Shown here: in pieces, positions 27,386 to 39,414 of the stretch | Layout: each line of letters begins with the position of its first letter | Numbering within the stretch: position 1 is the stretch's first letter | From: Actinokineospora inagensis DSM 44258 | GTDB taxonomy: Bacteria; Actinomycetota; Actinomycetes; Mycobacteriales; Pseudonocardiaceae | Assembly: GCF_000482865.1 (NCBI RefSeq) | Contig: NZ_AXWW01000005.1 | Location: 62,001-126,000 of the forward strand | Length of the DNA: 64,000 nucleotides | Direction: 5' to 3' | Made by a program: the position numbers and the translations under genes | The notes under the pieces: model-generated | Database searches by the model: none | What the model saw: only the letters and a program-made list of their open reading frames with translations | What the model was told of the DNA's origin: nothing

Positions 27386-27736
27386 ATGCCACAGAGCGGT
27401 CCGGACTTCCTCGAGGTCGTCGACGCCCTTCCCGACATCACCCGGGGCGAGGGCCCCACCTACACGTCGTTCAGCGTCGGCGGCCGCAAGTTCGGCTACT
27501 ACTGGCCCCGCACCCAGACCGTCGGGCTCAAGCAGACCCTGTCCGAACAGCTCGCCCTGGTCGCCGAACGCCCCGACGTGTTCGAGGTCCAGTTCACCTC
27601 CGGCGGATTCGGCTGGGTCGTCGTCACCCTCGCAGGCGTCGACCGCGCCGAACTCACCGAACTCGTCTTCGAAGCCTGGCGGCTCACCGCGCCCGAGGAC
27701 CTGCTCACCCTGGCCCCGGACCCGGCGGGTCGGTGA
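27386..27736 (+). CDS. MmcQ/YjbR-family protein
   Basis: 116 residues from ATG 27386 (MPQSGPDFLEVVDALPDI). CyaY-like YjbR fold: GPTYTSFSVGGRKFGYYWPR, SEQLALVAERPDVFEVQFTS, GWVVVTLAGVDRAELTELVF, EAWRLTAPEDLL. Family members are small, possibly DNA-binding, cytosolic proteins of unknown role. Divergent from the arsR gene with 66 bp between them, so it may share the palindromic control region. Confidence 0.85.
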   Translation: MPQSGPDFLEVVDALPDITRGEGPTYTSFSVGGRKFGYYWPRTQTVGLKQTLSEQLALVAERPDVFEVQFTSGGFGWVVVTLAGVDRAELTELVFEAWRLTAPEDLLTLAPDPAGR

Positions 27737-27744
27737 CAGGAGTC

Positions 27745-28036
27745 GGGTACCGATGTGGCCGGCGGCTCGGCGGGCACCGGTGCAGCGGCGGGTGTGCGGG
27801 TTCGCGCAAACTCGCCGCCTGGCCTTTTAGGAGGAGTGTCGCCGACCGCGTCAAGATCGAGGTCCCTGACGCGCTTCATCTCGACCATGGCTTCAACGAG
27901 GCGTTCGCCCAGGCCATGGTCGAGCGCAGTCCGTCGATCGACGGGCGCGCGTGCGGTCCCAGGCGGATGAACCGCCGTAGGCCTCGTCGGGGGTGAGCGA
28001 GGCGTCTGGCGTGACCAGCCAGGACACCGCGTCGCT
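27745..28036 (-). pseudogene. Remnant of an NmrA-like oxidoreductase gene
   Basis: Read leftward, one frame gives SDAVSWLVTPDASLTPDEAY, closely matching residues ~66-87 of the intact NmrA-like protein at 17556. It then jumps to LRSTM in one frame and, shifted, GLGERLVEAMVEMKRVRDLD plus LDAVGDTPPKRPGGEFARTR, matching that protein's C-terminus. About 145 residues are missing and the frame is broken at least twice. No start or proper stop. Dead gene lying between the YjbR gene and the immunity genes. Confidence 0.75.
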
Positions 28037-28109
28037 GACGACGCCGCCCGACCCGGGCGCGTCACCGAACTCACCGCGCCGACCCGGCCGGGCCGATATG
28101 GTGAGTTGG

Positions 28110-28592
28110 TCAGTCCTCGCGCGGCGGTCGGTGCCCCGGGCGGATTGCGGACTCCCGCATGTCGATCACTCCGGTGTCCCGCAACCGCAGGAGTTGCGTG
28201 CGCAAGGGGGTGTAGTCCGTCGCCGGCGGCACGTTGACCGCCCAGAACCCGTGCCTGCCGCTGGATTCCCATTCGCCGCCCGCCTCGGTCAGCAGCGCAC
28301 CGATCTCGTCGGCTCGCGCGGCGTCGGCGAGGGTGAACTGGATCGTGGAGTTGCCCGACTCGGCCACCAGTTCCTCGTGGAGGAACTCGCGGTTCACCAG
28401 GTCGATGCGGATCCGGATCGTGTCACCGAAGGCGATCCCGGGCACGTAGAAGGGGATGTTGGCGACTGTGAGCAGGTACGGGGTGGTCGTGCGCTCGGCC
28501 CACATCGCCTCGGTCATCCCGGGAGCACGGGCGATGACCTCGTCCGGGAGTTCGAAGACAACCTTGCACATCCCGGTCGGCGAACCCGTCAC
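28110..28592 (-). CDS. DUF4265 protein, second of a tandem immunity-type pair
   Basis: 160 residues from GTG 28592, overlapping the preceding gene's stop as GTGA, with AAGGAG just upstream. DUF4265 features: GMCKVVFELPDEVIARAPG, MWAERTTTPYLLTVANIPFY, VPGIAFGDTIRIRIDL, then ELVAESGNSTIQFTLADAA. Paralogue of the gene at 28589-29095 (similar layout and length, clearly diverged). DUF4265 proteins recur as immunity proteins behind polymorphic toxins (family knowledge); here it follows the RHS-HNH toxin gene, which supports that role. Confidence 0.82.
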   Translation of the reverse strand: MTGSPTGMCKVVFELPDEVIARAPGMTEAMWAERTTTPYLLTVANIPFYVPGIAFGDTIRIRIDLVNREFLHEELVAESGNSTIQFTLADAARADEIGALLTEAGGEWESSGRHGFWAVNVPPATDYTPLRTQLLRLRDTGVIDMRESAIRPGHRPPRED

Positions 28593-29095
28593 CCGCGCTC
28601 CTTCGACAGACCGGCGGACTCGCGGTGGCCCGGCCGGAGGGCGGCTTCCACGAAGTCCAGCGAGCCGGCTTCCTTCAGCCGCAGCAGTTCGGCGCGCAGC
28701 GCGGCGTAGTCCGTTTGTGCGGGTACATGGACCGCCCACAATCCGTCCTCCGGGTTTGTGTCCCAGGGACACCGGGCGTTCACCAGCAGTTCGCGCGCCT
28801 CGGTGACACACGACCGGTCGAGCACGGTGATTTGAATCGCCGAGTTCTCCGATTCGGAGATCAACTCTTCGTAGACGAACTCCCGCCGTTCGTGGTCGAT
28901 CCGGAAGCGGATCACATCATCGATCGCGATCCCCCGCACGAAGAAAGGGGCGTTCCGAACGCAAAGCTGGTATTGGGTGTCCGTGTATTCGGTCCACAAC
29001 TGCTCGGTGAACATCATTGTCCGGGCCACCACGTCTTCCGGCAGGTCAAAAGCGACCTTGGTCAAACCGAGCGGGTCCCTATCCCAGTCTGCCAC
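28589..29095 (-). CDS. DUF4265 protein, probable cognate immunity protein of the RHS toxin
   Basis: 168 residues from GTG 29095 with GGAAGGA eight bases upstream, 33 bp after the toxin stop. Contains GLTKVAFDLPEDVVARTMMF, LWTEYTDTQYQLCVRNAPFF, VRGIAIDDVIRFRIDH, ELISESENSAIQITVLD and a C-terminal PAQTDYAALRAELLRLKEAG. Third codon positions are visibly less GC-rich than in neighbouring housekeeping genes, as often seen for horizontally exchanged toxin tips and immunity genes. Expected to bind and block the HNH nuclease in the cytosol. The assignment rests on family and position. Confidence 0.84.
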   Translation of the reverse strand: MADWDRDPLGLTKVAFDLPEDVVARTMMFTEQLWTEYTDTQYQLCVRNAPFFVRGIAIDDVIRFRIDHERREFVYEELISESENSAIQITVLDRSCVTEARELLVNARCPWDTNPEDGLWAVHVPAQTDYAALRAELLRLKEAGSLDFVEAALRPGHRESAGLSKERG

Positions 29096-29128
29096 TAGGC
29101 AATCCTTCCAGACTCCGAAGTGATGATC

Positions 29129-32100
29129 TCACCTGACTCTGATCTTGATCCCGAAGTCTCCGAGGGTCCGGATAATCTTCGTGTCCCACTCGCCCATGGT
29201 CAGCGGACCCTTCGACCGGTTGCACGAACGGCACGACACGGCGCCGTTGGACGCGACTCCCAGCCCACCCTGCGACTTCGGGACCACGTGGTCGATCTGC
29301 GCGTCGTCATGCTGGCCCGGCACGCCCTTCTCGGAAGGACGTCTCGTGACCTCCTTGCCGCAATACTCGCACTTGTACACCCCGCCGTTCGCTTCGGCGT
29401 TCGCCGCGTAGACCTTCTCCCGCTCGACGTCGGTGAAGTCCGAGCCGCAGTTGTGGCCGAGTACGGGGACGAGGCCAGCGAGCACATAGTACGTGTGGAC
29501 CACATCGACCGTGAGGTCGTAGCTGGTCCTAGGCCCGGTGTGGGTGGTGACCCCGGTGACGACCGTTTTGCTGCCGTCGGCGGTAGCCAGGTCGTCGCCT
29601 GTGGCCAGGTCAACGGCGTCTTGCCAGGTGTGGGTGGTGGCGTCCCAGAACTGGTGTCCGGCCGTCGTGTGGACTACGGCCTCGGCGCCGTCGGAGCCGC
29701 GGACGGTGACGTCGGCGAGGTCGAGGTCGTTGTTGACGTGGAGGGCGGTGACGGTGTGTTCACCCTGTTCGCCGGTGCCGGGGTCGGCGGCGACGACTCG
29801 GTCGCCGACGTGGATGTCCTTGATGGGCTTGGTGAGGCCGCCTGCCATCAGGACGCGGGTGGCGCCGTCGAAGCTGTGGCAGCCGCTGGATGAACTCTCC
29901 GACGGGGGTCTGCCTGAGCTGCCGGAGGGCTTGGGGGTGCCTGCGGTGTCGGCGGCGGTTCGGCCGCTGCCTGCGGCTGCCTTGCCACCGCCGGTGTCGG
30001 TGGCGGCGCGGACCGCGTCGGAGGCGGTGGCTTCGGCGGTGCCTCGGCCGAAGGCGCCTGCGGCGGCCTTGGCGGCGTAGCCGAGGACTTTGCCGCCCGC
30101 GTAGCCGAGGGGGCCCATGACGGCGCCGACGCCGCCGCCGGTGAGGGCGGCCATGCCGAGGTCGCTCCAGGAGAACTGGCCGGACTGGGCGGCTTGGACG
30201 CCGTAGGCGGCCGCTCCCCCGGCGGCGCCTGCGAGGGCTCCGCAGCCGGCGGCGCCCGCGACCGCGCCGATCCCGGCGGTCGGGATGCCGATGACGGCCT
30301 CGCAGCCGAGGAACACCGCGGTGGAGACGACGAAGTCGACGATGGCGGGGGCGTGGTTCTCGACCCACTGGGTCGCCGACGTGACCGCTGTCTGGGCGGC
30401 GTTGTAGGCGGTGGCGACCCCCACCCTGACGGTGTCGACGACGTCGGCGGCGAACTGGGTGACCGTCTCGAGGGTCTTCTGGGCGACGCTTTGCAGTTCG
30501 TGGTAGGCCTCGACGACGGCGGCGCGGCCGGTTTGGTAGAGGTCGTCGATCTGGTCGGCGACGGTGGTCACGGCGTGGCGGACGGCGCCTGCCGCCGCCT
30601 TCGCGGCCGTGGCTCCCGCGTCGTAGACCTTGCCGGCGACCTTGGCCACGGCCTGGCCGACTCCCTTGGCGGCGTTGCCGACGGCTTTGGCGCCCGCGGC
30701 GACCTGTCTGCCGAGCCACTTCGCCGCGTCGGACACCGCGTGGCCGACCGCAACGGCGGCGTGGCCGACGGCGACCGCCGCGGTCTTGACGCCGTTCCAC
30801 GCCCAGTTCACCGCGTCGGACGCGGTGTTCCACGCCCAACTCGCGGCGTCCGACGCGGTGTTCCAGGCCCAACTCGCCGCGTCGGTGGTGGCGTTCCAGG
30901 CCGTGTCGGCGGCGCTGGTGACGCCGTCCCAGGCGTCGCAGGCCCAGCCCCAGAACCCGCCGCAGGTGCCGCTGGTGTCGGTGCCGTTGAGCGGGTTGTT
31001 GCCGAGGTAGGCGTAGCGGTGACCGGCGATGGGGGTCGGGACGGGTGAGTTGTCGGCGGTGTCGCGGGTGGTGAACTGGCCGATCCCGGGGCTGTACCAG
31101 CGGGTGCCCATGTTGACCTGGCCGTTGCCCTGCTCGGTCCACCCCGACTGGAAGCCCAGGTTGCCGATCGGGGTGCTCGACGCGGTCTTCGCGCCCCACG
31201 GGTCGTAGCTGGTGGACCCGCCGAGCGACGAACCCGCCGCCGAGAAGGTGCCGATGACGTCGTCGTGCTGGTCGGTGTACGCCAGCTCCGACCGGCCGCC
31301 CTGTTTGACGCCGAGCAGGTCGTCGCCGGGGCCCCGGCTGTACAGCGCGGTCCCGTCGCTCACGACCGAGTTGCCGGTGCCGCTGTAGACCATCTGCCGG
31401 GCGCTCTGGCCCATGGTCGTGGCGGTGTTGACCCGACCGAAGGCGTCGTAGGTGTAGGTCTGCACACCCCGGGTGATCTCCTCGTCGAACGCGTTCGAGG
31501 TGATCTGGGTCGTGTTGCCCGCCGTCGTGATGCCCGACAGCGTTCCGCGCGCGGTGTAGGCGTAGTCGCTGGTGCCGTCGTTGAGCAGTTGGTTGCGGGC
31601 GTTGTAGGTGAAGGTCTTCGACCCGGCCTGGGTGCGGTTGCCGGAGGCGTCGTAGCCGTAGTTCGTCGTGGTCGAGCCCGTGGTCCAGGAGGTCAACCGG
31701 CGGGCCTGGTCGTAGGTGTAGGTGTTGTTCGACGCCCCCGCGGCCCCGGTGGTGTTCTTCGAGGTCATGTCGCCGTTGCCGTTGTAGCCGTAGGCGATCG
31801 AGGCGACCTGCGCCCCTCCGGCCGTCTTGACCACGTCGGAGGTGAGCTGCCGCAGGTCGTCGTAGCCGAAGGTGCGGACGTTGCCGCCGGTGCCGTAGGT
31901 GATCTTCGACAGCAGCGACGCCTGGCCGTAGTCGTAGGTCAACTGCGCGCCGGTCAACGGGTCCGACGCGGTGTGCAGGCGACCTGAGCTGTCGTAGCCG
32001 TAGTTGGCGGTACCGGCGGCGTCCGTGCGCTGGGTCAGTCGACCGCCGTTGTCGTAGGCGAAACCGGCCGTCCCGCCCGGACCCGCGGTGGTCAGCACCA

Positions 32101-35100
32101 TGCCGCGGTCGTCGTAGGTGTAGTTGTTGGTCGTCCCACCCGGCGCCGAGGCCGAGGTGACGCGACCGGCCAGGTCGTAGCCGAAGGTCCGGTCGATCGT
32201 GCCCGCGGCCGCGCCGGTGCCGGTCTGCTTGGTGACCCGGTCCATGTCGTCGTAGGTGAACGACGTGCTCACCCCGCCCGGCGAGGTCCGACCGGTCAGT
32301 CGACCGTTGAAGTCGTAGCTCGCCGTGAACGTGCGGTCCGTGGCGTTCGGGTACTGCGTGGTGGCGGGCTCCACGATCTGGCGGGGCAGGTTCCACGCGT
32401 TGTAGACGGTCTTGAAGACCCCGCCGCGGCCGTCGGTGAACCGGGTCAGGTTGCCCGAATTGTCATACCCGTACGACGACGTGATCGAACTGGTCGACGT
32501 GACCGGTTGGACGGTCTGGGTCAACCGGTCCAGGTCGTCGTAGGAGTAGGTGGTGGTCGCGCCTGCCGCGTCGGTCTGGGTCAGCAGCCTGCTGCCCTTG
32601 TCGTAGGTCGCCTTGACCTCGTTGAGCGTGGCGCCGTTCTTGGTTTTCTTGACCGAGGTCGCGTTGCCCAGGTCGTCAAAGGTCGTCTCGCTGGTGAGGC
32701 CGTCGGCCTGGTAGGCGCGGAACGGCCTGCCCAGGTGGTCGTAGCTGAAAGACGTCATGAAGCCGGTGGGGTCGATCTGCCAGGCCACCTGGCCGAGGGT
32801 GTCGTACTCGTAGGTGGTGCTGCCCGACCCGGGCGACGCCACGCCCCGCACCTGGTTGTAGTCGTTGTAGTCGAACGTCGTGGTGGCCGCGTGCGGGGTG
32901 GGCTGGCGGATCACCTCGGTCGCGGTCAGCGGTTTGCCGAGGTGGTTGTAGGTCGCCTGGGTGACCGCGCCGGTCGGGTCCGTCGTGGACAGTCGCTCGC
33001 CGTTGGTGTCATAGGTGTAGGTGGTGACACCGCCGTCGCGGGCCACGACCTTCGAAAGATCACCGAGCTGCGTGTAGGAGTACGTGGTCGCCTTGCCGAA
33101 CGAGTCCTTGACCTCGGTCAACTGGCCCAACCCGTTGTAGGCGTTGGTCTTCGTGGCCGTGGACGTACCCGGGGCCCGCACCGAGGTGACCCGGCCCCCC
33201 GCGTCGTAGGCGGTCCTGGTCACGCCTCCGTTGGGGTTGACCTCCTCGACCTGCTCGCCGAAGGTGCTGTACCCGTACTTGCTGTTCGGCTGGGTCGCGC
33301 CGGGCGCGTCGACCCCGTTCTCCACCTGCACCTGTGGGGCGAGGACGGAGAACACCTTGCCCGCGTCGTCGTAGGAGTAGGTGGTCACCCGCCCCAGTGG
33401 GTCGGTCACCGTGGTCGGCAGGCCGAGCTGGTTGCGCACGGTCGTGGTGGTGACCGGCCCGGTCGCGGTCGACACCGTCTGGGTCAACGCCAGACCGGAC
33501 GGGTCGTAGGTGGCCGAGGTGACCCGGGTCTTGCCCGCTCCGGTGGTGGTCTGCTTGGTGATCTTGTCGTCGGCGGAGAACTCGTAGGCGGTGCGGCGGA
33601 TGCCGTCCGGGTCGGTCACGGCCGCGGTGCGGCCCGCGGCGTCGATCTCGTAGAGGACAGAGGTGGCGCCGTTGTCCTTGCTCTGCCCGGTCAGGTGGCC
33701 CGCGCCGTCGTAGCTGTCCATCTCCAGGCCCATCTCGGAGGTGTTGGGCCCGACCCGGATGACCTGGAAGACCTTGCCGTCGTCGTAGTAGGTGTAGCGG
33801 GTCCGCCTGCCCATCGAGTCGGTGATCGACGCGAGCCGTCCCGCCGGGTCGTACGCCCGCGACGACTCCACCAGGTCGGTGGGTGTGCCCGGGTTGTTCG
33901 GGTCACCGCGGTAGCCGACCAGGGTTTGCGTCAGCAGCTTGTGGTTGGGGTCGTAGGCATAGCGGACGACGTTGCCCGCGGGGTCGGTGTCCTTGGACTT
34001 GTTGCCGTAGACGTCGTACTCGTAGGTCCACGACGCGTTCGTCGCGTCCGTGACACCGGTCAACTGGCCGCGCGGGTTGTACGTCGAGTGGACGACGCGG
34101 CTGGTGTCACCGCCGGTGATGTCGTCGACCGTCTGGATCGTGGCGTTGCCGTCGAGGTCGTAACCGGTGGTGGCGCGTGCGGTGTGGGTCACCCCGGAGA
34201 CCCGGTCGCGGACACCCGGGTCGGTCTGCACGGACACCAGACCCAGGTTGTTGTACTCGTAGCGCGAGGTCCGCTCCACGCCGTCGGCGACGACGTGCCT
34301 GGCGGTCATCCGGCCGAGGTTGTCGTACTCGTAGTCGGTGACCACGCCCGCGGCGTCGGTCGAGGAGTAGACGTCGCCCGCGGCGGTGTAGAGGGCCGTC
34401 TGGACCGAGCCGCCGGGCGTGGTCGTCTTCGTCGGCAACCCCGGCGGTGGGTCGACCCCGTTGGCGCCTTGGGCGGTGTACTCGAAGGTCATCGTGCGGC
34501 CGTTGGGGAACCCGGCCACCGGTGGGGTCTGCACCGAGGTCTGGTTGCCGAACGCGTCGTAGCCGAACGTGGTCTTGTACCGGTTGTCGGTGGGCCCGGT
34601 GGTCCGGCCGTCCCGGGTGGAGGCGACCAGCCCGTACTGGGGATCGCCCGCGGCCGCGGAGGTGTAGGAGTAGTAGGTCGTGGAGCAGTGCTGCAACTGG
34701 ATGCTCTGGCAGGTGGTGACCGAACTGGTCTGCCCGTTGCTCGCGTTGTGCGTGGTGACCGTGGTGTTCCCGTTGGGGTCCACCACCGTCTGCAGGTTGC
34801 CCGACTCGTCGTAGCCGTAGCGGGTCGCGTTGCCCAGGGCGTCGGCGCGGGAGAGCATCCGGTTGCCCATCCGCGGGTCGTGCGTCTGGACCAGGGCCTT
34901 GCCGGTGGGGTCGGTGACCGTCACGGACAGCACCGGGGAGGTGCCCGTGGCGCGCTGCCCCGCCTGCCAGATCGCCTTGATCTTGTCCGCGTTCACGCTG
35001 GACGGGAAGTAGGCGACGTCGGAGATGGAACCGGAGAAGAACGTCGCGGTGGCCGAGCCGCCTGTGCCGCTGCGGTTCTGGTCCGGCCAGGTGCCGCCGA

Positions 35101-38100
35101 GGAAGCCCGCGCCGACCAGGGTCACGACCGTCGACGACAGGTCGACCGGGTCGACGGTGCCGCCGCGGCTGCCCACGGACACCCCGTCGAGGTAGAGGCC
35201 CTGGCTCCCGGCGCCCGCGGTGAGGACCACGTGGTGCCAGAGGCCGTCGTCGACCGCGTTCGGTGACGACATGGTGGTGGCGTTGCCGTCCCAGAACTTG
35301 CCCTGCAGCTTGCCGTCGTTGCCGACGTAGAGCGCCGGGGTGTAGTTGGCGCTGCTCGTCGCGCCCGGTGTCACGGCTTGGGCCTGGTAGCTGAACAGCA
35401 CGCCGTTGCGGGCCGAGGTGCGGAACCACATCGAGATGGTCTGGGACGCGCCGGAGCCCTTGGTGCCCACCACATAGGTGCGGGACAGGTCCAGTGCCGA
35501 GGACGTCCCGTTGAACGACGCGGCCGTGCGGTCGCTGAACGGGCCCGGCCCGCCGAGGGTGACCGACTGGTACTCGGCGGCCCCGCCGTTGACCTCGTTG
35601 CGGGGCGTGGTGCCTGCCATGTCGGCGAGCCGCCAGTAGTCCCGGGGCGCGGCGCCGAGCACCGCGCCCGCGTAGACCTGGCTGGAGCCGGTCACGGTCG
35701 GGTTGCCGACCGACCAGTTGCCGCCCGCGCTGTCGACCACCGACGACACGCGGCCGCCTGCCGGGTCGTAGCTGGTGAAGCTGTACGCGCCGCCGCCGGG
35801 CTTGTTGACCGTGGTCATCGAGTTGGCGACGGTGCGGCCGGTGTCGGCGAGTTTGGTGACCGCCGCCGGGTCCAGCACGTGGTTGAAGTACGCGACGTCG
35901 GAGATCGACCCGGTGAAGGTGCTGCGGACACCCTGGTACGAGGTCGACGGGTTGGGCTGGTCCGGCCACTGCCAGCCGAGGAAACCCGCGCCGACGTAGG
36001 TGTAGCGCAGCGCGTCGATGGTGACCGACCGGGTCTTGGTCTGCGTGCCGACCTGGCCGCCGTCGACGAACAGGGTGTAGCTGTCGTGGGTGTTGGACAG
36101 CACCACGTTGTGCCACTGGCCGTCGGCGAGGCTGCCCGCGGTGACGACGGGGCTCGGTGTGTTCTGGCCGTCCTGGTAGGGGGTCGCGTAGATCTTGCCG
36201 CTGGAACCCATGTACAGCACGGGGAGGTAGCTCTCCGTGCTCGACGAGTTCGCCGTCACCGACTGCCCGTTGTAGGACAGCAGCACGCCCGGCCGGGCGT
36301 AGTCGGCCTTGAACCACAGGCTGATCGACCGGTTGTCCGGCTCGTCGTAGAGGGTGTTCGGCAGGGTGACCGACCCGGTGAGGCCGTTGAACCCGACCGA
36401 GCGCGCCGTGGAGCCCGCGATGCCGCCGGGCTGGTTGAACGCCACGGAGTTGTAGGTGCCGTTGGTGGTGTTCTGGTTCAGCACCACCGAGTCACCGGCC
36501 GTGGTGCCGGAGGTCTCCCCCAGCCGCCAGTAGTTCGTCGGCGAGTTGTCCAGGACCGCGCTGGGGTACTGGGTCGTGGCCGTGTAGCCGTAGTGGGTGC
36601 AGCCGGTCGCGGTGCCCGGCGGCGTGCCGGGCGCGGGGACGGTGACCCCGGGTGGGCAGGCGTCGGTGAGCTTGTCGCCGGAGTAGGCGTAGTGCCAGAC
36701 CAGGGCGCTGCCGGGGACGTTCGGGTTGACCGGGTCGGTGCTGACGGTGTCGATGTGCGGGCGCAGCGCGCCGGACGGGGTGGTCCAGGTCAGGGTGAGC
36801 GACCGGCCGGACGCGCCGGTCAGCGACGCCAGCCGGGTCCCGGAGTAGGTGAAGGTCAACTCACGGGACGCGGCGTCGACGATGCTGGTGAGGCCGAAGC
36901 CGGTCGACAACTGCTTGCCGTAGAGCCGGGTGGTGTCCTTGTCGTCGACCATCCGGTACCCGCCCGCGGGCAGGCTGAAGAGTGTGGCGGAACGGCCGGG
37001 TGGCGAGACCAGGGTGCCGTCCGGGTTCCGGCCGAACACGATCTGCTGACCGTTCGCGTCGGCGACCGTGACCGTCATGATCGTGGTGCCGACCCGCTGC
37101 TCGGTGACGCGGCTGTCGTAGAGGCTCGACCAGCCGAGGCCGAACGCGTTGTCCAACCGGGTGTCGACGCTGTTGTAGGTCCGCTGCACCGACAGCGACG
37201 GCCCCACCGTCGACACCTCGGCGTCGGTAGCGGCGGACATGAAGTTGCCCACCACCGGGTCGTAGCCGCGACCGTCCTGGTTGGCCCCGAGCGACCTGGA
37301 CACCGCGGGTTGCGGGATCGTCGTGGTGAAACTCTTGAACTCGACCTCGTCCGCGGGTTGGTCGCGGTAGCCGTCGTTGGCGATCGCTGTCCACAAGTAG
37401 GTCCGGTTCCACTTCAACACACCCGGGGCGATGGTGTGGCTCGACTGGGTCGAGTTGGGGTCGGGCAGGGTGACGACCTCGTCGACGACGTTGTTCGACG
37501 TGTCGTACACCCGCCACAGGTAGCTCAGCGGGCCGGGCCAGTTGTCCGGGTCGTAGCCGGACACCGACAGGGTCGGGGTCAGCGTGGGCGCGGCGTAGGC
37601 GTTGGCGGGCCACATGTCGGTGATGACGGGGGCCTCGTCGGCGACCCAGTCCATCGTCAGGTACGCCTGCCGGACACCGGCGTTGGAGCTGGCGAGGACT
37701 TTCTTACCCGTGGAACCGGCGTCGGTGGTGATGGCCAGGCCCCAGTTGACCTGGGTGCCGCCGTTCCACCGGATCTGGTTCGGGTCCAGGGTGATCTGGA
37801 CCCACTGGCCGTCGTTGATGTTCTGGCTGGTGTTCGCGCACGCCGTGGCGGTCGCGACGTTGACCTGACCGACCTGCGCGCCCAGCGTCGGGCGGGTGGC
37901 CCAGGTGACCGAGTTCGGCGACCAGTAGCTGTTGACCAGCGAGACCTGCATCGGCTTGGCGGCGCAGGTCACGGAGTAGACGACGAACACGTTCAGCGTC
38001 ACGGCGGTCAGGCGCTGACCAGGGAACGCCGTGGTGACCTGGTCGAACGAGACCAGCGACTCGGTGTTCGAGCCGATGTTCATCGTCATCGACGACGACT

Positions 38101-39235
38101 GGTCGCCCACCTCGGGGCTGGCGACCCAGGTGGAGGAGTTGGCGAAGATCGCGCCCATGGACGGGTCGACGACCACCGGGTACACCCGGGCCGGGTCCGA
38201 GAGCCACTTCTTGTCGGCGGTGACCTTGAGCGAGGTCGTGGCGCCGGTCTTGACCAGCTCGTAGGTGATCGCGCTCGACTCGGCGACACCGTCCTGCCTG
38301 GTGTCGTGCATGGTTCCGCGCGGGATCCGCAGCTCGACCTTGCCCGCCGCGTCGACGAAGTCCACGGCGCCGTTGGCCAGGCGCGGGGTCAGACCGGTGG
38401 TGGTCAGCGGGAACGTCCACGAGTTCGTCGCGGCTCGGGTGCGCAGGACCAGCGACTCCTTGACGCCCGCGGGAGTGGAGTCCAGGGTCAGGTCGGTGGC
38501 GGGCAGGACCTCGGCGAAGTCCACAGTGGATGGATCGTCGGTGGACGCCTTCGCCGCCCTGGCGCCGGTGAGGGAGTAGGACACCGACTCCCTCGGGCCG
38601 GTGCCGACCGTGACCAGCGCCGGGTCGTTCGCGGTGGGCGCGATCTCCACCGTGATCCCGGACTTGCGCGGCCGCAGCCGACCATCCGGCCCGGCCTGCA
38701 GAGTGGTGTCGGCGTCGGCGGGGGCCTCGGCGGCGTTCGCCTGCTTCCTGGGTGTCGGGTAGTCCTTGTCGGTCCGCGACCCGTCGGCGTTGGCGAACAC
38801 CTGGTGTTTGGGGGTGCTGCCCGCGCTCACCGGCTTGCTGGTCTTGGGGTCGAAATGCGCGGCCTTCGGCCCCACGGGAGTGGTGTGCTGCTTGCGCTTG
38901 TCCGCGGGGGGCTCGTAGGCGGCCGAGTCACCGGCCGACTTGACCTGCTTGGTCTTCGCGGCGAGCTTCTTCTCGTCCAGCTTGGCCCTGGTCGCGTCGG
39001 TCGGCACGTAGTGGTCCAGACCGGCGGCCGTCCCGGTGACCTGCTTCGGCGTGTCCAGCGGGTCCGCCGAAGCCGACCCCGGCACCAACCACGCCAACGC
39101 CGAAGACCACCCCGGCCACCCCGACCGCCCCAACTGATCCGCGGCGCCGGGGGACACCGCCACCGGGACCACCAGGAAGACGACCAGCAGTGCCGCCGTC
39201 CAGACCGTTCGCCTGGTCCCGTACCTACCGCGCAT
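29129..39235 (-). CDS. Giant secreted RHS/YD-repeat polymorphic toxin with HINT and HNH nuclease
   Basis: About 3,368 residues from the second ATG (39235), which has GGGGAG at proper spacing; the first ATG at 39241 is too close. Order by residue: signal peptide (1-35), N-terminal beta domains including a DNRLRE/TGF-like secreted part, YD entry near 650, two LamG concanavalin-type domains (~900-1130, starting NYWRLGETSGTT, and ~1200-1420, DYWRLADMAGTT), dozens of RHS/YD repeats (~1440-2680), RHS core MGTRWYSPGIGQFTTRD (~2710), a Trp/Ala repeat linker SWAWNTASDAASWAWNT (~2790), helical and Gly-rich region, HINT domain from CHSFDGATRVLMAGG (~3120) to VPVLGHNC (~3264), and a C-terminal HNH nuclease with CEYCGK, QIDHVVPKSQGG and CRSCNRSKG. 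HINT autoproteolysis should release the nuclease from the RHS shell. Two DUF4265 genes follow. Confidence 0.93.
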   Translation of the reverse strand: MRGRYGTRRTVWTAALLVVFLVVPVAVSPGAADQLGRSGWPGWSSALAWLVPGSASADPLDTPKQVTGTAAGLDHYVPTDATRAKLDEKKLAAKTKQVKSAGDSAAYEPPADKRKQHTTPVGPKAAHFDPKTSKPVSAGSTPKHQVFANADGSRTDKDYPTPRKQANAAEAPADADTTLQAGPDGRLRPRKSGITVEIAPTANDPALVTVGTGPRESVSYSLTGARAAKASTDDPSTVDFAEVLPATDLTLDSTPAGVKESLVLRTRAATNSWTFPLTTTGLTPRLANGAVDFVDAAGKVELRIPRGTMHDTRQDGVAESSAITYELVKTGATTSLKVTADKKWLSDPARVYPVVVDPSMGAIFANSSTWVASPEVGDQSSSMTMNIGSNTESLVSFDQVTTAFPGQRLTAVTLNVFVVYSVTCAAKPMQVSLVNSYWSPNSVTWATRPTLGAQVGQVNVATATACANTSQNINDGQWVQITLDPNQIRWNGGTQVNWGLAITTDAGSTGKKVLASSNAGVRQAYLTMDWVADEAPVITDMWPANAYAAPTLTPTLSVSGYDPDNWPGPLSYLWRVYDTSNNVVDEVVTLPDPNSTQSSHTIAPGVLKWNRTYLWTAIANDGYRDQPADEVEFKSFTTTIPQPAVSRSLGANQDGRGYDPVVGNFMSAATDAEVSTVGPSLSVQRTYNSVDTRLDNAFGLGWSSLYDSRVTEQRVGTTIMTVTVADANGQQIVFGRNPDGTLVSPPGRSATLFSLPAGGYRMVDDKDTTRLYGKQLSTGFGLTSIVDAASRELTFTYSGTRLASLTGASGRSLTLTWTTPSGALRPHIDTVSTDPVNPNVPGSALVWHYAYSGDKLTDACPPGVTVPAPGTPPGTATGCTHYGYTATTQYPSAVLDNSPTNYWRLGETSGTTAGDSVVLNQNTTNGTYNSVAFNQPGGIAGSTARSVGFNGLTGSVTLPNTLYDEPDNRSISLWFKADYARPGVLLSYNGQSVTANSSSTESYLPVLYMGSSGKIYATPYQDGQNTPSPVVTAGSLADGQWHNVVLSNTHDSYTLFVDGGQVGTQTKTRSVTIDALRYTYVGAGFLGWQWPDQPNPSTSYQGVRSTFTGSISDVAYFNHVLDPAAVTKLADTGRTVANSMTTVNKPGGGAYSFTSYDPAGGRVSSVVDSAGGNWSVGNPTVTGSSQVYAGAVLGAAPRDYWRLADMAGTTPRNEVNGGAAEYQSVTLGGPGPFSDRTAASFNGTSSALDLSRTYVVGTKGSGASQTISMWFRTSARNGVLFSYQAQAVTPGATSSANYTPALYVGNDGKLQGKFWDGNATTMSSPNAVDDGLWHHVVLTAGAGSQGLYLDGVSVGSRGGTVDPVDLSSTVVTLVGAGFLGGTWPDQNRSGTGGSATATFFSGSISDVAYFPSSVNADKIKAIWQAGQRATGTSPVLSVTVTDPTGKALVQTHDPRMGNRMLSRADALGNATRYGYDESGNLQTVVDPNGNTTVTTHNASNGQTSSVTTCQSIQLQHCSTTYYSYTSAAAGDPQYGLVASTRDGRTTGPTDNRYKTTFGYDAFGNQTSVQTPPVAGFPNGRTMTFEYTAQGANGVDPPPGLPTKTTTPGGSVQTALYTAAGDVYSSTDAAGVVTDYEYDNLGRMTARHVVADGVERTSRYEYNNLGLVSVQTDPGVRDRVSGVTHTARATTGYDLDGNATIQTVDDITGGDTSRVVHSTYNPRGQLTGVTDATNASWTYEYDVYGNKSKDTDPAGNVVRYAYDPNHKLLTQTLVGYRGDPNNPGTPTDLVESSRAYDPAGRLASITDSMGRRTRYTYYDDGKVFQVIRVGPNTSEMGLEMDSYDGAGHLTGQSKDNGATSVLYEIDAAGRTAAVTDPDGIRRTAYEFSADDKITKQTTTGAGKTRVTSATYDPSGLALTQTVSTATGPVTTTTVRNQLGLPTTVTDPLGRVTTYSYDDAGKVFSVLAPQVQVENGVDAPGATQPNSKYGYSTFGEQVEEVNPNGGVTRTAYDAGGRVTSVRAPGTSTATKTNAYNGLGQLTEVKDSFGKATTYSYTQLGDLSKVVARDGGVTTYTYDTNGERLSTTDPTGAVTQATYNHLGKPLTATEVIRQPTPHAATTTFDYNDYNQVRGVASPGSGSTTYEYDTLGQVAWQIDPTGFMTSFSYDHLGRPFRAYQADGLTSETTFDDLGNATSVKKTKNGATLNEVKATYDKGSRLLTQTDAAGATTTYSYDDLDRLTQTVQPVTSTSSITSSYGYDNSGNLTRFTDGRGGVFKTVYNAWNLPRQIVEPATTQYPNATDRTFTASYDFNGRLTGRTSPGGVSTSFTYDDMDRVTKQTGTGAAAGTIDRTFGYDLAGRVTSASAPGGTTNNYTYDDRGMVLTTAGPGGTAGFAYDNGGRLTQRTDAAGTANYGYDSSGRLHTASDPLTGAQLTYDYGQASLLSKITYGTGGNVRTFGYDDLRQLTSDVVKTAGGAQVASIAYGYNGNGDMTSKNTTGAAGASNNTYTYDQARRLTSWTTGSTTTNYGYDASGNRTQAGSKTFTYNARNQLLNDGTSDYAYTARGTLSGITTAGNTTQITSNAFDEEITRGVQTYTYDAFGRVNTATTMGQSARQMVYSGTGNSVVSDGTALYSRGPGDDLLGVKQGGRSELAYTDQHDDVIGTFSAAGSSLGGSTSYDPWGAKTASSTPIGNLGFQSGWTEQGNGQVNMGTRWYSPGIGQFTTRDTADNSPVPTPIAGHRYAYLGNNPLNGTDTSGTCGGFWGWACDAWDGVTSAADTAWNATTDAASWAWNTASDAASWAWNTASDAVNWAWNGVKTAAVAVGHAAVAVGHAVSDAAKWLGRQVAAGAKAVGNAAKGVGQAVAKVAGKVYDAGATAAKAAAGAVRHAVTTVADQIDDLYQTGRAAVVEAYHELQSVAQKTLETVTQFAADVVDTVRVGVATAYNAAQTAVTSATQWVENHAPAIVDFVVSTAVFLGCEAVIGIPTAGIGAVAGAAGCGALAGAAGGAAAYGVQAAQSGQFSWSDLGMAALTGGGVGAVMGPLGYAGGKVLGYAAKAAAGAFGRGTAEATASDAVRAATDTGGGKAAAGSGRTAADTAGTPKPSGSSGRPPSESSSSGCHSFDGATRVLMAGGLTKPIKDIHVGDRVVAADPGTGEQGEHTVTALHVNNDLDLADVTVRGSDGAEAVVHTTAGHQFWDATTHTWQDAVDLATGDDLATADGSKTVVTGVTTHTGPRTSYDLTVDVVHTYYVLAGLVPVLGHNCGSDFTDVEREKVYAANAEANGGVYKCEYCGKEVTRRPSEKGVPGQHDDAQIDHVVPKSQGGLGVASNGAVSCRSCNRSKGPLTMGEWDTKIIRTLGDFGIKIRVR

Positions 39236-39414
39236 GCCCATTCTCCCCAGTCAGAGTCAGCGGGAAAAGTAAGCAGCGCTCACGTCGTTTGAGGGCTTGT
39301 CCGGTGAACAACGAACAGCCGGGTGACTCCCAAGTGTCGTAAAAACGCAGGTAAACCGGACGATCTGGCATGGACCGGACGGTTTGGAGGGTGTGGGTCC
39401 ATGATCACGCCGGT

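Follow-up and report, generated by a model that had tools for sequence, protein, structure and literature searches.

A giant RHS protein whose C terminus consists of a HINT domain followed by an HNH nuclease tip is encoded in the 64,000-nucleotide stretch of Actinokineospora inagensis DSM 44258 analyzed here (the window; host genome of 7.28 Mb, spread over 97 contigs), and its gene is followed directly by two genes of the DUF4265 family, imm1 and imm2. We consider it fairly probable that this is a polymorphic toxin locus in which DUF4265 is the immunity family, imm2 arose by tandem duplication, and one copy serves the resident tip and the other, diverged copy serves variants of it; the toxin and immunity assignment taken by itself is likely, judged from sequence. 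This reading is favored because of the domain anatomy, the HINT residues, the gene order, the correlation between tip and DUF4265 distances, the sisterhood of imm1 and imm2, and a published pattern of tandem immunity genes. The anatomy of the locus, the conserved order of tip and DUF4265 genes, and the sister relation of the two copies are direct observations. The features of the locus are these:

29129..39241, minus strand: RHS/YD-repeat giant protein of 3,370 residues, ATG start, with a C terminus made up of HINT domain and HNH tip (open reading frame translation, Pfam, NCBIfam)
35888..36178, minus strand: first LamG stretch, residues 1022-1118 (Pfam Laminin_G_2)
34979..35452, minus strand: second LamG stretch, residues 1264-1421 (Pfam Laminin_G_3)
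30968..31207, minus strand: RHS-associated core domain, residues 2679-2758, with a Trp/Ala-rich linker after it (NCBIfam TIGR03696, E 1.8e-12)
29450..29881, minus strand: HINT domain, Cys3121-Asn3264 (Pfam PT-HINT, E 1.8e-17, and residue reading)
29132..29449, minus strand: HNH nuclease tip, 106 residues from Cys3265, with CxxC, DH, and CxxC motifs (Pfam HNH, E 8.6e-11 for the tip alone; conserved columns of 11 tips)
28589..29095, minus strand: imm1, a DUF4265 protein of 168 residues, GTG start 33 bases past the toxin stop codon (Pfam, E 2e-19)
28110..28592, minus strand: imm2, a DUF4265 protein of 160 residues, GTG start overlapping the imm1 stop codon as GTGA (Pfam PF14085, E 1.5e-20; sister of imm1 in the tree)

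The sequence-only reading had described an RHS protein of about 3,370 residues with two LamG domains, a HINT domain, and an HNH tip, and open reading frame translation, Pfam, and NCBIfam bore this out; its end coordinate, 39235, fell 6 bases short of the actual 39241. Pfam RHS_repeat matched 14 stretches (E 5.9e-89), both Laminin_G stretches gave E values of about 1e-19, PT-HINT scored 64.3 bits against a cut-off of 27.7, and NCBIfam Rhs_assc_core identified the RHS-associated core with 47.6 bits against a cut-off of 32.5. A DNRLRE domain and DUF6531 were likewise matched, the Trp/Ala-rich linker was confirmed, and a hydrophobic segment close to the N terminus, noted by eye, is the basis for calling the protein putatively secreted. 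HNH was matched in the whole protein (E 1.3e-8), and the last ~105 residues, which had been read as a nuclease, also matched it when the tip was searched alone. By reading, the HINT catalytic residues are all present (Cys3121, a TxxH motif in the form TTAGH, and the HN3264/C3265 junction), and the 106 residues after the junction contain C28xxC31, D54H55, and C74xxC77 (aligned-tip numbering), which are invariant across 11 tips. With YD/RHS repeats and core, a HINT domain ahead of the tip, and what appears to be an exchangeable tip with an adjoining immunity gene, the protein has the makeup of a putative RHS polymorphic toxin with HINT processing. In its own genome the tip was matched once, imm1 and imm2 were the only DUF4265 genes, and the RHS core was matched eight times.

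An alignment of the window tip with the tip of locus L016 (A1) was searched against bacterial and archaeal genomes, one for each species, and returned 11 loci. Ten were near-complete tip matches, and all ten had exactly one DUF4265 gene directly downstream in the flank examined; one of them, L041, lies in the genome that supplied the second row of A1, which leaves nine independent loci. The match at the eleventh locus (L042) was limited to tip residues 3-40, and no DUF4265 gene was found there. In a plasmid collection 11 records matched the tip, and of six examined, four had a DUF4265 gene next to it (H1, H3, H5, and H7). A count independent of the tip searches started from 114 distinct DUF4265 domains and a profile built from the 11 tips of alignment A4: the profile matched the frame directly upstream of 34 domains, and the 316 downstream frames gave no match (111 of the 114 domains had a downstream frame). 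After removal of 13 domains from loci fetched by the tip and of the window's own two, 99 domains were left, and a related HNH lay directly upstream of 20 of them, comprising 8/17 in the window's clade and 12/82 in other clades.

Distances between tips and distances between DUF4265 domains correlate across 17 loci (r 0.85), a value reached by none of 5,000 permutations. The order of HNH tip and DUF4265 gene is conserved in three phyla, which supports the pairing that the sequence-only reading had proposed. In Neisseria gonorrhoeae (L161, 1976-3168), the end of a HINT-HNH frame with 42% identity to the window tip overlaps a DUF4265 frame whose product is identical to PDB 5UEB. The same order recurs in Leptospira and at a more distant Streptomyces tip. 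DUF4265 is thus most likely, on sequence grounds, an immunity family for HNH tips, and the gonococcal arrangement suggests an immunity role for the 5UEB protein. We also observed a second HNH tip type (CxYCR...DHV...CN.SK...WPPxWW) that precedes a second DUF4265 clade at six loci (L022, L023, L024, L027, L063, and L099), so the type of tip and the clade of DUF4265 seem to go together.

The overall design of the toxin belongs to a known kind; PMC13018210, for example, describes RHS/YD shells that carry toxins at the C terminus and have immunity genes. The assignment of DUF4265 as an immunity family for HNH tips, which had been called known, was not found in the literature searched. The 2012 catalogue PMC3482391 names Imm-SuFu, Imm13, Imm21, Imm33, and Imm38, and not DUF4265, as immunity families of the NGO1392-like HNH clade, and the word DUF4265 does not occur in the first 300,000 of its 357,715 characters. 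The NGO1392-like toxin, the MafB of MGI-5 in N. gonorrhoeae, combines an intein-like HINT domain with an HNH/EndoVII DNase domain as the window protein does (PMC4287609), and its HNH clade has the CxxC, DH, CxxC signature of the window tip (PMC3482391), whereas the carrier differs, being an RHS shell with LamG in the window and DUF1020 in the NGO1392-like MafB. All 11 tips also keep Q52, a candidate for the conserved Q of the NGO1392-like clade (PMC3482391). PDB 5UEB is an unpublished structure of a hypothetical protein with no published function (PMC8466066); unlike imm1 and imm2, to which its sequence identity is low, the gonococcal gene is single copy in that stretch.

Both DUF4265 genes of the window exceed the Pfam gathering cut-off of 27, with PF14085 scores of 70.1 bits (imm1) and 73.8 bits (imm2). 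Each is preceded by a purine-rich ribosome site (by eye), both frames are open, and the starts are positioned for co-translation, the GTGA overlap of imm1 stop and imm2 start occupying 28592-28589. The two proteins are 48% identical, with residue changes common to both, so that the earlier description of two diverged DUF4265 genes in a GTGA overlap holds. We found no exact shared words of 10-30 bases between the two genes, and synonymous divergence (dS) between them looked saturated. The 21 rows of a clade-A alignment (A2) that are not imm1 or imm2 have 43 conserved columns; imm1 keeps 28 of these and imm2 keeps 29. Beyond imm2, at 27733-28109, lies debris that resembles coding sequence, together with a short inverted repeat, CTCGACCATGGC...GCCATGGTCGAG (by eye), perhaps the remnant of a mobile element.

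Of 200 genomes from the family, 33 had DUF4265 matches, as did 42 of 394 genomes of the class (37 above the cut-off), and searches with A2, in which at most nine candidates were scored per genome, found the domain in 36 of 390 family genomes and in 93 of 392 genomes of another genus, probably Streptomyces; these sets overlap, and the first three (200, 394, and 390) include the window's own genome. Two side-by-side DUF4265 genes were detected in none of the searched genomes of the family, the class, or the other genus except the window's own, in keeping with the suggestion that the second adjoining gene is exceptional. The next-closest pairs are 1.7 kb apart in G530 and 3.2 kb apart in G425. 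A candidate second tandem pair in G026 was rejected; its two adjoining matches span different parts of the profile and were read as one broken gene. A tree of 69 DUF4265 domains groups imm1 with imm2 as sisters (support 100/98), on end branches of 0.47 and 0.54, and joins the pair to two genes of G593, a genome of the same genus (97/86). The possibility that imm2 is a cousin imported together with a rival tip was rejected on this sisterhood, and because the sisters are only 48% identical, a local duplication in the lineage followed by divergence of both copies is indicated. We therefore read the second copy as real, rare among the genomes searched, and a local tandem duplicate.

Tandem paralogous genes of one family, in the same direction and with little spacing, agree with the definition of homogeneous polyimmunity in PMC3482391, but polyimmunity loci are there distinct from regular toxin loci and a full toxin gene lies immediately upstream of the window pair; we prefer to call it a toxin locus whose immunity gene is duplicated. 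According to the same paper, paralogous immunity genes in tandem may serve as backups against the toxins of non-kin. Several immunity proteins for one toxin have been published, including EsaG arrays (PMC9484751), Bsi and BAH for Bxa (PMC11699363), and Tdi5a and Tdi5b (PMC13392607), and tandem paralogues with one cognate copy are described for EsaG (PMC9484751) and in the introduction of PMC13392607. The EsaD/EsaG system of Staphylococcus aureus resembles this locus in that non-identical paralogues from a single immunity family stand in tandem behind a nuclease toxin; the first copy of the arrays is the cognate one, and orphan immunity genes occur elsewhere (PMC9484751). EsaD/EsaG differs in its type VII secretion, up to 12 copies, and recombination blocks, in contrast to the RHS carrier and the two copies of the window, which have no 10-30-base word in common, and the likeness drawn here between EsaG and DUF4265 is one of gene arrangement. 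Tde5 of Pseudomonas aeruginosa, a beta-beta-alpha-metal DNase, also has two adjoining immunity genes (PMC13392607), but Tdi5a and Tdi5b are unrelated and bind different surfaces, whereas imm1 and imm2 are paralogues.

Within the genus, an RHS-like HINT frame that bears another C-terminus is followed, on contig C63 of G593 (L096, 585-1987), by a partial type-A HNH match that covers tip residues 39-99 and by a clade-A DUF4265 gene, an arrangement like a displaced cassette. Orphan clade-A DUF4265 genes without an HNH profile match directly upstream are present in G594, G595, and G593 (L092, L093, and L094). We read these genus loci as the usual pattern of exchangeable tips and left-over immunity genes. 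The LamG pair had been thought to make the shell unusual, a view that the genus does not support: 11 of 16 genus genomes have a match to the window's LamG region, and in 6 of the 15 besides the window's own the matched frame is 2,686-3,570 residues long. In G592 two places within one frame match the region, and YD-like motifs (loose pattern) were found in all five genomes examined of those six. The RHS-LamG shell looks ordinary for the genus.

Under the preferred reading, the RHS shell would be exported together with its HINT domain and HNH tip, and the HINT domain would cut after Asn3264, freeing a 106-residue nuclease that would act as a toxic DNase against competing bacteria. The DUF4265 proteins, whose genes are probably on the same transcript as the toxin, would bind and neutralize the tip inside the producer. 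The second DUF4265 gene would have come from tandem duplication in this lineage, and the likeliest role for the pair is a division of labor in which one copy, probably imm1, which adjoins the toxin, would guard against the resident tip and the diverged copy would guard against tips that vary within the same HNH type. Several observations weigh against this. Related tips lack an adjoining DUF4265 gene in two of the six plasmid records examined (H8 and H10; L164 and L165), and genome profile searches gave no DUF4265 match in G190, of the same genus, which has two large frames ending in related HNH tips (L082 and L090; 46% and 44% identity), so DUF4265 is not used by every related tip. Conversely, an upstream HNH was not detected with the tip profile for 79 of the 99 DUF4265 domains, including 9 of the 17 in the window's clade; these may be orphans, or stand behind other toxins that the profile missed, or have another function. 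Shared host descent confounds the distance correlation and may explain part of the r of 0.85. Charge gives no support, since 8 of 10 other tips, some of them incomplete, have isoelectric points below 6, in contrast to 8.3 for the basic window tip; the two acidic DUF4265 proteins have values of 4.7 and 4.9. Finally, imm1 and imm2 deviate alike from the fit of tip to immunity distances, so the cognate copy is not picked out by sequence.

Other roles for the pair, and for the family, were weighed against the same evidence. We regard it as unlikely that imm1 and imm2 share one tip as their target, bound at two sites or by a heterodimer, with both needed or additive in effect: the GTGA overlap, two intact frames, and similar end branches would fit such an arrangement, and the binding of Tdi5a and Tdi5b to separate surfaces of Tde5 is a precedent, but the single DUF4265 gene in each of the 10 near-complete relatives argues that two are not required by the tip type, and Tdi5a and Tdi5b are structurally distinct and not paralogues. 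It is also improbable that imm2 is a redundant or decaying duplicate, adding dose only or drifting without a separate target. Clade-conserved columns have been lost about equally by imm1 and imm2 (15/43 and 14/43), and a side-by-side pair kept in this genome only may be short-lived; yet one would expect a copy kept for dose alone to be more similar than these two, which are 48% identical and have no 10-30-base word in common, and both frames are open with starts placed for co-translation. Protection by any DUF4265 protein was not found in the literature searched, which, together with the 79 domains for which no HNH neighbor was detected, leaves some room for DUF4265 as another accessory factor of HNH proteins, such as an export chaperone for the tip. 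We think this very improbable, because a small gene directly after the tip fits immunity better than a chaperone, because DUF4265 tracks the tip and not its carrier, which is RHS in actinobacteria but a HINT-HNH frame in Neisseria, and because orphan DUF4265 copies without a toxin fit immunity better.

The locus suggests a function, immunity to HNH toxin tips, for a family that Pfam still lists as a domain of unknown function. The suggestion spans Actinomycetota, Neisseria, and Leptospira and also covers the unpublished structure 5UEB. If both copies were to lock the same tip, this would be dual immunity obtained through gene duplication, as opposed to the recruitment of two unrelated proteins exemplified by Tdi5a and Tdi5b. 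Because the 10 near-complete relatives are each single copy, the doubled gene offers a simple two-member case for studying how specificity changes after duplication of an immunity gene.

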